A DNA stretch of 64,000 nt from Subtercola boreus. GTDB lineage: Bacteria; Actinomycetota; Actinomycetes; Actinomycetales; Microbacteriaceae. The stretch covers positions 682,001 through 746,000 of the forward strand of contig NZ_VFOO01000001.1 of assembly GCF_006716115.1 (NCBI RefSeq). Reading direction: 5' to 3'. Shown here piece by piece: positions 9,912-44,854 of this stretch (positions within the stretch are counted from its first letter, which is position 1; each line of letters opens with the position of its first letter). Position numbers and translations under genes: made by a program. The notes beneath the pieces were generated by a model. The model was not told where the DNA came from and did not search any database. It saw only the letters and a list, made by a program, of their open reading frames with translations.

Positions 9912-9927
9912 CACTCGTTCCCTCCCC

Positions 9928-9969
9928 GAAGCCCCCGTGGCCGAGTCTCGACTCAGCCACGGGGGCTTC
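9928..9969. terminator. Long palindrome, likely bidirectional terminator
   Basis: GAAGCCCCCGTGGC (9928-9941) and GCCACGGGGGCTTC (9956-9969) are perfectly complementary. The 14-nt loop contains GAGTC/GACTC. It lies between convergent typA and the polymerase gene. Confidence 0.65.
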
Positions 9970-10292
9970 GTCGTTCGTTCGGGCACTGCTTCGGGCATCC
10001 GGACCGCTCTGAGCCGGGCGAGGAGTACGGACGGGCGAACCTGGGTCAGCACGAGGCCGTATGCGGGGGCATGGTGGCTGAGGTTCGTCCATCCGTGCGC
10101 CCGGCGGGCTCCCGGATGCCCGTGGCCGCGTTTTCGGCCAACTCCATGCCCGCCGGGAGGAGATGGGCGCGTCCGGGGCCGTGGAGACGGCGGATCGCCT
10201 CACCTCCTCCCGAGCGGCAGGACCTCCGGCCCGGCTGGCGCGGTAGGTGCGGTCGGGCGCGGGCGCGTCGGCGCGCGAGCGCGCGGAGCGGG
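9970..10292. other. 323-bp stretch without a recognisable gene
   Basis: This is GC-rich sequence between the palindrome and the stop of the minus-strand polymerase gene. Short open frames cross it on both strands, but none has a ribosome-binding site or a protein sequence I recognise. The last 45 bases are rich in GCGC palindromes (GGCGCGCGAGCGCGCGGAG). It may hold the 3' untranslated region of the polymerase gene. Confidence 0.5.
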
Positions 10293-28289: not shown

Positions 28290-28350
28290 CCCGCCCCCCT
28301 CCTCCTACTCCCTCCTACTCCCTCCTCCTTCCTTCCCTCCCTCCCTCCGC
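28290..28350. repeat. Homopyrimidine C/T tract
   Basis: About 60 bases almost free of purines, with CCTCCTACTC twice and CCTT/CCTC runs. It sits just outside the left palindrome of the DUF559 cassette. A purine tract occupies the equivalent place on the right side. Confidence 0.85.
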
Positions 28351-28351
28351 C

Positions 28352-28408
28352 CCGAAGGGTCCCATATCGCGCCAACGGTGACCGCGCACCGCGATATGGG
28401 ACCCTTCG
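28352..28408. repeat. Left palindrome/inverted terminal copy of the DUF559 cassette
   Basis: A perfect 19-bp inverted repeat (28353-28371 with 28390-28408) has core GGGTCCCATATCGCG around an 18-nt loop. Its first 30 bases (28352-28381) match the reverse complement of 29483-29512 at 27 of 30 positions. The arm differences (TCC here, ACG there) are compensated in the opposite arm. Confidence 0.9.
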
Positions 28409-28417
28409 AGTGCGGTG

Positions 28418-29395
28418 TCAGTGCGCACGGCCTCGGGAGACGGCCGAAGCGACGCGGCGGCGCAGAATCTCCGAAATGTGTTCGGTGGTCCGGCGGGGGA
28501 AGTCGAAGAGCCCCTCCTTCCGCACGCGGATGACATGCCAGTCGTCGAGGTGGAACCGCTCCAGTCGCGTCGCATCCTTCTCGTATTGCCTGTCATTCGT
28601 GCGGTGCTGCTGGCCGTCGTATTCGACGATGACCCTGGCCTCCCGGAAGACGAGATCTGCCCGGCCGATCCTTCTGCCGGTCGAATCACAGAGTTCCGGA
28701 TTCACCTCGGGTTTTGGCAACCCGGCCCTGTGGAGGAGGAGACGCAGCAGGCTCTCCGGGCGCGATTCCGCCCTACCATTCATCAGCGCCAGGGCCACTC
28801 TCGCTCGGTTCACGCTGGGGCCGCGGGCACTTCTGGCATGCGCTTCGAGTTCCGCGAGCGTGACGTAGGGGCGACGGTCTCCTCGAACCGGGTGGACCGG
28901 ACGGTGGATCAGGTGGTCGCCGAGCGCCACGAGCTCGTCGAGGGAGAGGAGCTGAGCCGCTCCGAACCAGGTGGTTGTCGGGTCGGTGACGGGGAGCCCA
29001 CGTCGGATGACCATCGGTGATGGTGGGAGCGTGTGGCCGACGGTGCCGCGAGCTCGGCGAGCCCTGGCGGGGTCGGGGACGGCGACATGCAACGGTGCGG
29101 TGGTGAAGCTTCTGGGCAGCGCGGCTCCCCAGAGCAGGGCGGCGGTGGTGTGGGAGAAGCGTTCGCCGGGCCTGAGCACGGTGGCGAAGGCGTGGCACCG
29201 CGCGACTGCTTCGCGGACGAGTCGGTCTTCATCGCCGGGCTGGCGGCCGGCTCCTGCGGAGGTGTGCACCCCGTGGAACGGCGCGCGGAGGTCTGCGCTC
29301 CGGAGGCGTCCAGCTCCGACGCCGAGTCTGTGTGCGGTCCGGTTCGTGAAGGGGATGCCCGTCAGCGCGGCGGGCAGGGGCTTGAGTTCTGGCAT
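28418..29395 (-). CDS. DUF559 domain protein (Vsr-like nuclease fold)
   Basis: 325 residues. The C-terminal third is a DUF559 domain, related to very-short-patch-repair endonucleases: GRADLVFREARVIVEYDGQQ with acidic residues near 247-258, then RLERFHLDDWHVIRV. The first 200 residues resemble the N-terminal part of AbiEi-type or other DUF559 proteins of actinobacteria (RFSHTTAALLWGAALP, VTDPTTTWFGAAQLLSLDEL), with no helix I can assign a function to. ATG 29395 has AGGGTG six bases upstream. The gene is bracketed by inverted palindromes and skewed tracts. That suggests an accessory unit, although no transposase is present. DNA nicking or cleavage is inferred from the family only. Confidence 0.8.
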   Translation of the reverse strand: MPELKPLPAALTGIPFTNRTAHRLGVGAGRLRSADLRAPFHGVHTSAGAGRQPGDEDRLVREAVARCHAFATVLRPGERFSHTTAALLWGAALPRSFTTAPLHVAVPDPARARRARGTVGHTLPPSPMVIRRGLPVTDPTTTWFGAAQLLSLDELVALGDHLIHRPVHPVRGDRRPYVTLAELEAHARSARGPSVNRARVALALMNGRAESRPESLLRLLLHRAGLPKPEVNPELCDSTGRRIGRADLVFREARVIVEYDGQQHRTNDRQYEKDATRLERFHLDDWHVIRVRKEGLFDFPRRTTEHISEILRRRVASAVSRGRAH

Positions 29396-29460
29396 GCGAA
29401 CACCCTGCCGGGCTTCCAGAGGCGTCGTGCACCGTTTTCCACAGGGTGAACGTCAGCGAG

Positions 29461-29512
29461 GGGACGCATATCGCGCCACCCCTCCCCGTTGGCGCGATAT
29501 GCGTCCCTTCGG
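29461..29512. repeat. Right palindrome/inverted terminal copy of the DUF559 cassette
   Basis: An 18-bp perfect inverted repeat (29461-29478 with 29490-29507) has core GGGACGCATATCGCGCCA around an 11-nt loop. In reverse orientation it is homologous to the left element and ends in CCCTTCGG next to the purine tract. Confidence 0.9.
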
Positions 29513-29613
29513 AGGGGCGCGGAAGGAGGGGAGGAGGGGCGCGGGGGGAGGGGCGCGGGAGGAGGGGCGGAGGGGTGCGGGAGGAGGGCAGGCGGAGAGA
29601 GGGGAGGGCCGGG
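29512..29613. repeat. G-rich purine tract
   Basis: About 100 bases dominated by GGAGGGG and GCGCGGG units. GGAGGGGCGCGG-type units recur at least three times. It contains many runs of three or more G and could form G-quadruplexes. It separates the right palindrome from the mrp stop codon. Confidence 0.8.
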
Positions 29614-44796: not shown

Positions 44797-44854
44797 TCGA
44801 GTGGGCGATTCGGGCCCTAAAACTCCGTTTTATGGGCCCAAATCGCCCACTCGA
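44797..44854. terminator. 58-bp near-perfect palindrome between convergent genes
   Basis: The left arm (44797-44823, TCGAGTGGGCGATT then GGGCCC and TAAAAC) pairs with 44827-44854 over 26 bp, with one mismatch, one bulge and a three-base loop TCC. It lies between the ferritin-like gene and kynU and probably terminates both. Its size and symmetry recall the palindromes of the DUF559 cassette. Confidence 0.65.

Follow-up and report, generated by a model that had tools for sequence, protein, structure and literature searches.

A gene for a predicted Vsr-like nuclease in the genome of Subtercola boreus is enclosed by two inverted copies of a long palindrome, further copies of which are dispersed in the same genome (G000 in this study; other G numbers denote comparison genomes and L numbers loci). 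With a probability of about two in three, we regard the gene and its palindromes as one of many actinobacterial nuclease–palindrome pairs that work like REP sequences and their RAYT proteins, with an unrelated enzyme. Somewhat less securely, it is probable that the REP/RAYT principle was invented here a second time and independently: each of several Vsr-like DUF559 nucleases in a genome would build and maintain a dispersed family of its own palindrome, clearly so in Microbacteriaceae and in some families of the same order, and perhaps in the wider Actinomycetota. A preliminary description of the window, which is the whole stretch of 64,000 nucleotides that was analysed, had proposed the REP/RAYT analogy. 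The analogy gained strength from the matching palindromes on both sides of many DUF559 genes, from their specificity for the individual gene, and from three families that are dispersed chiefly in gene-bearing genomes. Among the matches listed in open PubMed Central, as judged from titles and the beginnings of abstracts, none connects palindromes of this kind with DUF559 or Vsr-like nucleases.

If the main reading is correct, it supplies a protein and a testable origin for many long intergenic palindromes of these high-GC Gram-positive bacteria, and a role for a large set of functionally uncharacterised DUF559 genes. Domesticated nuclease–repeat partnerships would then have arisen twice, from unrelated enzymes, and the natural nuclease–site pairs, one per paralogue, could serve for reading out the recognition rule.

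Window gene and its predicted nuclease domain

The gene, an open reading frame at positions 28,418–29,395 of the window on the minus strand, encodes a protein of 325 residues and has a syntenic ortholog in the congener G008, with 85% protein identity. The Vsr-type nuclease that the preliminary description placed between the palindromes is borne out by a match to the Pfam family DUF559 of 26.5 bits (cut-off 20.6); the match to REase_MTES_1575, a Vsr-type nuclease family, stays below its cut-off (18.8 bits, cut-off 38.2). The protein has no match in NCBIfam. The Vsr-like nuclease domain is C-terminal (residues 247–311, window positions 28,463–28,657, minus strand), as placed by Pfam, Foldseek and a profile match, and the N-terminal region appears to be winged-helix-like. 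The AlphaFold2 model of the protein has a mean pLDDT of 94.9. A Foldseek search of the PDB with this model gave no match at an E-value of 0.001; the first two ranks by E-value are chains of the Toxoplasma mitoribosome with low TM-scores, followed by the catalytic domain of I-Bth0305I (PDB: 3r3p), with a TM-score by target of 0.74–0.79 and an E-value of 0.02. The sequence profile matches 3hrl (8.8e-6) and 3r3p (3.9e-4). The gene is thus predicted to encode a Vsr-like (EDxHD-type) nuclease with a homing-endonuclease-type fold.

Across 57 proteins, Glu213, Gly260, His263 and Asp273 are invariant, and Asp246 and Glu257 are conserved in at least 90% (numbering of the model, which lacks the first methionine and is one lower than in the 325-residue protein). 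At E ≤0.01, 49 of these proteins match MTES_1575 and 41 match DUF559; one weakly matches AbiEi_4, an antitoxin winged-helix family (E 0.0085).

The window gene is located between mrp and a gene for an aldo-keto reductase (akr). Its dN/dS ratio is 0.21, and the ratios in eight orthologous DUF559 pairs range from 0.13 to 0.28. In 22 of 24 comparisons, drawn from 12 syntenic, overlapping pairs that share genes and species, the neighbours are better conserved than the DUF559 protein. Judged from these sequence comparisons, DUF559 genes evolve faster than their neighbours while remaining under purifying selection. DUF559 genes do decay, since copies with internal stops exist (G007_L017 and G014:C1:2208331-2209508).

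Palindromes in the window

The two palindromes that enclose the gene belong to family A, as identified by a covariance model. Directly 3' of the gene is a 56-bp dyad with perfect 19-bp arms (28,353–28,408), and 61–116 bp upstream of the gene start is a 55-bp dyad in which 21 of 22 arm positions are complementary (29,457–29,511). Positions 28,352–28,381 and the reverse complement of 29,483–29,512 are alike at 27 of 30 bases; both the inverted arrangement and the near-perfect palindromes are as the preliminary description had given them. The window contains four palindromes with a score of at least 16, versus none in ten first-order Markov copies of it. At 44,797–44,854 there is a solo copy of a second family, D, which scores 35.5 against the flank of the paralogue L069 of G000 (G000:C1:3634240-3635181). 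A strong 44-bp palindrome with a 2-base loop at 9,927–9,970 has a best score of 9 against DUF559 flanks; it is perhaps an ordinary terminator or belongs to a palindrome family without gene assignment.

The differences between the two copies had been taken as matching changes that conserve the stem. The changes in the arms are present, but arm-to-arm covariation is weak across 25 aligned dyads: the score of family A is reached by 23 of 500 shuffles when 22 pairs are counted, and by 7 of 500 when the count is restricted to the outer 16. The arms of family D have 20.40 of 22 letters alike, versus 19.90 with shuffled partners (0 of 5,000); the analysis of arms and spacing covers 96 of the 103 half-sites of G000, and four without a partner were left out. 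With a weak signal in both families, a stem kept by strong compensatory change was rejected. Because the arms within a dyad are barely more alike than arms from different dyads, recognition of conserved half-sites at near-fixed spacing explains more than stem pairing. The spacing is 38 bp in 44 of 48 family D dyads, with pairs sought at 37–39 bp only.

The preliminary description also reported mirrored tracts outside the palindromes, C/T on the left and G/A on the right. The tracts are present at the window gene, but are not a regular part of the 35 dispersed family A sites in the genome: within 50-bp flanks, a pyrimidine content of 80% or more occurs on the left at three sites and a purine content of 80% or more on the right at none, the background frequency being 0.2% of windows. 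The enrichment at the dispersed sites is therefore on one side and is not mirrored. The flank match of the paralogue L067 of G000 extends into an outer C/T-rich tract, and the mirrored tracts are thus not unique to the window gene.

Matching palindromes at the flanks of DUF559 genes

To score flank pairing, the 400 bases upstream of each gene were compared with the 400 bases downstream, and a score of at least 19 was counted as a pass. The first set comprised the 72 of 74 DUF559 loci with flanks of sufficient length. The test is passed by 33 of these genes (Fisher p 8.9e-17); among the controls, 1.1% of mismatched pairs pass, as do 3 of 461 windows and 1 of 131 open reading frames, the last drawn from the window and from 100 kb of each of four congeners. 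Both flanks are palindromic in 23 of the 33 positives and at least one flank in 28, by a strict count that misses palindromes overlapping the stop codon (as at L067 and L170). A second set contained 27 of 30 loci, from genomes whose DUF559 flanks were new to the study; three loci from already tested genomes were excluded. Here 14 of 27 genes pass versus 1 of 702 mismatched pairs (p 2.4e-21), and the positives are palindromic on both sides in 4 of 14 cases and on at least one side in 11, so that most of them are without a clear palindrome on one side. In a third set, which had no controls of its own, 20 loci yielded 22 open reading frames; 21 of these could be scored, with 6 passes. The test is failed by 39 of 72 genes in the first set and by 13 of 27 in the second.

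The pairing is specific to the individual paralogue. The paralogues L067, L068 and L069 of G000 have three other palindromes, each located on both sides of its gene, whereas a further, weaker DUF559-type gene of this genome, L070, has a palindrome on one side and another, L259, has none. Flanking by two repeat copies, as in RAYT genes, is found for the window gene, its ortholog in G008 and the three paralogues of G000. Flank pairing is firmly established in Microbacteriaceae, is found at individual genes from further families of the order (G028, G029, G032 and G316), and is unproven beyond the order. Outside the class, the gene in G094 has a palindrome on each side; the matching flanks of the positives in G287, G229 and G235 are not both palindromic and look like repeats of another kind. 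The confidence in the main explanation rests on Microbacteriaceae, and the claim of breadth is kept narrow, as only part of the flank matches is palindromic on both sides.

Protein identity and palindrome similarity are correlated among 47 genes (Mantel test, 0 of 2,000). Much of this correlation reflects shared descent, because 13 of the 14 between-species gene pairs whose palindromes are similar are syntenic orthologues. With this caveat, the Mantel test and the concerted change of one letter in family D (see below) correspond to the coevolution of gene and repeat in RAYT systems.

The relationship was also followed from palindrome to gene. The window and four 100-kb samples contain 16 long palindromes when the window pair is set aside, for six of which a DUF559 flank in the same genome scores 23 or more. 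Two further palindromes, in G009 and G007, match flanks of DUF559 genes that were fetched later. The palindrome at L149:3240 pairs with the gene in L258 (38.5) and that at L143:9283 with the gene in L266 (24.5 and 29.5), versus scores of at most 10.5–13 for 89 other flank palindromes. Eight of the 16 long palindromes are without a DUF559 partner, which counts against the main explanation. The motif CGAG, chosen post hoc, occurs in the outer 7 bases of the arm in 15 of 59 families, versus 2 of 59 in the next 7 bases; the signal is weak, and CGAG could be a cutting motif shared by the palindrome families. REP sequences carry a neighbouring GTAG or CGTC tag instead.

Distribution of palindrome families and their genes in the genus

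The covariance model of family A was built from 25 dyads, 23 of them from G000, and finds 37 places in this genome at E <0.001, including these 23; the copies are 55–57 bp long, mostly 56 bp. Among the 12 genomes of the genus, the gene is present in G000 and in G008, which has about 47 copies or more. There are about 17 copies in G011, about five in G007 and about four in G010, and none were found in the seven other congeners. The congeners were scanned with stricter filters for at most 94 candidates per genome, so that the number for G008 is a minimum and weak copies may have escaped detection. Weaker matches occur in eight genomes outside the genus, most of them in G014 (15 matches, best 6.7e-7) and G021 (five matches, best 3.1e-7). 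A single stringent family A pattern, searched against 84,980 public species genomes, matches 13 stretches, all of them from Subtercola.

Family D amounts to about 50 copies in G000. Its half-sites number 103 in G000, 26 in G008 and 87 in G010, all of which carry the gene, 14 in G011, one in G007 and none in the seven other congeners. Family C has 18 half-sites in the gene-bearing G000, one in G008, four in G011 and none in nine others. The three palindrome families follow their genes across the congeners, which parallels the correlation of RAYT gene presence with cognate repeat copies; gene absence is stated per genome from the DUF559 matches found and from those fetched, which are a part of the matches. 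The exception is G011, which carries copies of the families without a detected gene. Its assembly consists of 170 contigs, two of which begin no more than 70 bases from a family A dyad, so that a short gene between two palindromes could be absent from the assembly.

The half-sites of family D change in concert with the gene flanks. In G000, 52 of 59 exact half-sites have T as letter 16; in G010, 21 of the 23 exact ones listed among its 87 half-sites have C. The letter mostly agrees with the gene flanks of the same genome. On contig C1 of G000, 27 of 37 family A sites are in the outer half (p 0.008), and 26 of 46 family D places show no skew; clustering near the origin was dropped as an interpretation, with family D unskewed and the origin not located.

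Placement and age of the dispersed copies

Based on codon-usage gene calls made in this analysis, the 35 dispersed family A sites occupy 13 convergent, 13 tandem and two divergent gaps, and seven are inside a called open reading frame. Divergent gaps are rarer than among comparison gaps (2 of 28 versus 9 of 26, p 0.018). By itself, this placement at gene ends favours plain gene-end hairpins. The preliminary description had named equal occurrence at many unrelated gene ends, as expected of plain terminators, as an argument against a nuclease–palindrome system; the palindromes do adjoin many unrelated gene ends, which is also true of REPs, but their paralogue-specific pairing is unlike that of terminators.

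For comparison across species, 12 family A sites were tried, nine inspected and seven compared in full. At all seven, the dyad is at the same place in G008, and the family A copies are therefore old. At the same sites in G010, which has no gene at the family A place and no close orthologue, the dyad is absent from five, decayed at one, and palindromic with a changed core at one. Of the five sites without the dyad, one carries a different palindrome and two were anchored by the left flank alone. At L097, an eighth site, G008, G010 and G011 all have the dyad.

The block with the window gene is at the same place in G008; G010, G007 and G004 lack it in the gap from mrp to akr, where a different palindrome or none was seen. 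The gene and the dyads come and go between species. The preliminary description had suggested searching relatives for a clean empty site; none with a target duplication, and no clean insertion, was found at the compared family A sites or in the mrp–akr gap. Read by eye, the gene-less gaps of G010 and G007 (L115 and L117) hold a palindrome of a different family, and a comparable replacement is found at L097 in G009 and at L099 in G010.

Alternative explanations

The placement of the copies could be explained by bidirectional terminators that DUF559 genes merely happen to have on both sides. This is improbable as a full account, although 26 of 35 family A gaps are convergent or tandem and only two divergent, and two dyads kept their symmetry in G010 despite a changed core. 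Plain terminators do not account for the pairing with the flanks of a particular nuclease paralogue: they would not differ by paralogue or be nearly lost from congeners without one gene, and they would not share a 20-bp half-site at the near-fixed spacing of families A and D. Seven of the 35 sites are, moreover, within a called open reading frame. The near-fixed spacing of half-sites resembles sites of dimeric proteins, and the protein may instead regulate genes or organise the chromosome as a sequence-specific DNA-binding protein that has a nuclease-like domain; the dyads would then be its operators, the flanking pair would autoregulate the gene, and nothing would be mobile. The retention of dyads at orthologous places and the weak AbiEi_4 match of a single protein agree with such a role. 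We consider it unlikely, since turnover of the families between congeners and fast evolution of the gene are unlike an essential organiser, and the conserved nuclease residues suggest cutting.

Homing is a highly doubtful explanation. The nuclease would cut gene-less solo dyads, and repair would copy the cassette of palindrome, gene and palindrome into them. The nearest solved nuclease fold is indeed that of a homing endonuclease, and the gene-less mrp–akr gaps of G010 and G007 contain a palindrome; however, that palindrome belongs to a non-cognate family. In G000 there is a single gene for each of families A, C and D, the orthologues are syntenic, and no DUF559 match is located within 10 kb of the 35 dispersed family A sites. 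The preliminary description had also offered a defence cassette, namely a restriction-like nuclease with palindromes as self-marks or regulatory sites. Related Vsr-type domains are part of predicted conflict systems (PMC3710099). PADLOC gives no match for the window protein and its three paralogues in G000, the neighbours are mrp and the aldo-keto reductase gene, and carriers are few among mobile elements, with matches in 3 of 72,556 plasmid records and 1 of 50,697 phage records; a defence role has only a very slight chance of being correct.

Proposed mechanism and relation to known systems

In the nuclease–palindrome partnership that we favour, the N-terminal part of the protein would bind the two half-sites of its own dyad, and the nuclease would nick or cut there. 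Host repair or strand transfer may then copy the dyad to new intergenic sites, mostly 3' of genes, and keep the copies alike. We infer the enzyme to be the agent of this spread. The gene would later be inherited vertically, and the dyads would persist as non-autonomous repeats that are perhaps tolerated, or used as gene-end hairpins.

The hallmarks of RAYTs given in PMC2817692 are flanking repeats, correlation with cognate repeats, coevolution, and syntenic orthologues that outpace their neighbours. These four are found here with an unrelated enzyme, with the exceptions of G011, of the genes failing the flank test and of the share of shared descent. The likeness to REP/RAYT systems (REPtron, REPIN) thus consists of a nuclease gene between two cognate palindromes, dispersed extragenic copies, a gene–repeat correlation, and syntenic orthologues that evolve faster than neighbouring genes. 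RAYT genes are said always to be flanked by a repeat. Their flanking palindromes change yet stay palindromic (PMC2817692). The enzymes differ, a DUF559 Vsr-like nuclease here and an HUH (Y1) tyrosine transposase in RAYT. Membership of the RAYT group was rejected on this ground, as the protein is a DUF559 protein without an HUH transposase; Y1_Tnp, and with it any RAYT, was not found in the 12 genomes of the genus, and Y1_Tnp occurs in 2 of the 40 genomes searched. The dyads here are about 45–85 bp long and occur in tens of copies, unlike REPs, which are given as 20–40 bp (PMC3733652) and usually over 100 copies (PMC2817692).

The catalytic domain has its nearest solved fold in I-Bth0305I, which we take to be an intron-associated member of the EDxHD group. 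The gene described here differs from it in being free-standing between palindromes, with dispersed cognate repeats. A likeness to the Vsr/REase_MTES_1575 group is evident from the 49 proteins that match this family. The passages of PMC3710099 on MTES_1575 describe it as a domain of giant HEPN-helicase proteins and mention no palindromes.

The possible winged-helix N terminus resembles AbiEi antitoxins of type IV toxin–antitoxin systems, AbiEi being the name for such winged-helix antitoxin proteins; here it is fused to a nuclease. The adjacent AbiEii toxin that characterises a type IV system was not found, the two neighbours being mrp and the aldo-keto reductase gene.

Family D dyads of G000 are in places clustered about 100–150 bp apart, at G000:C1:1777686-1778004, 1439604-1439777 and 1345324-1345481, in a BIME-like arrangement. 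At L248 of G008, two family A dyads are in tandem, and the sequence flanking them is duplicated as well.
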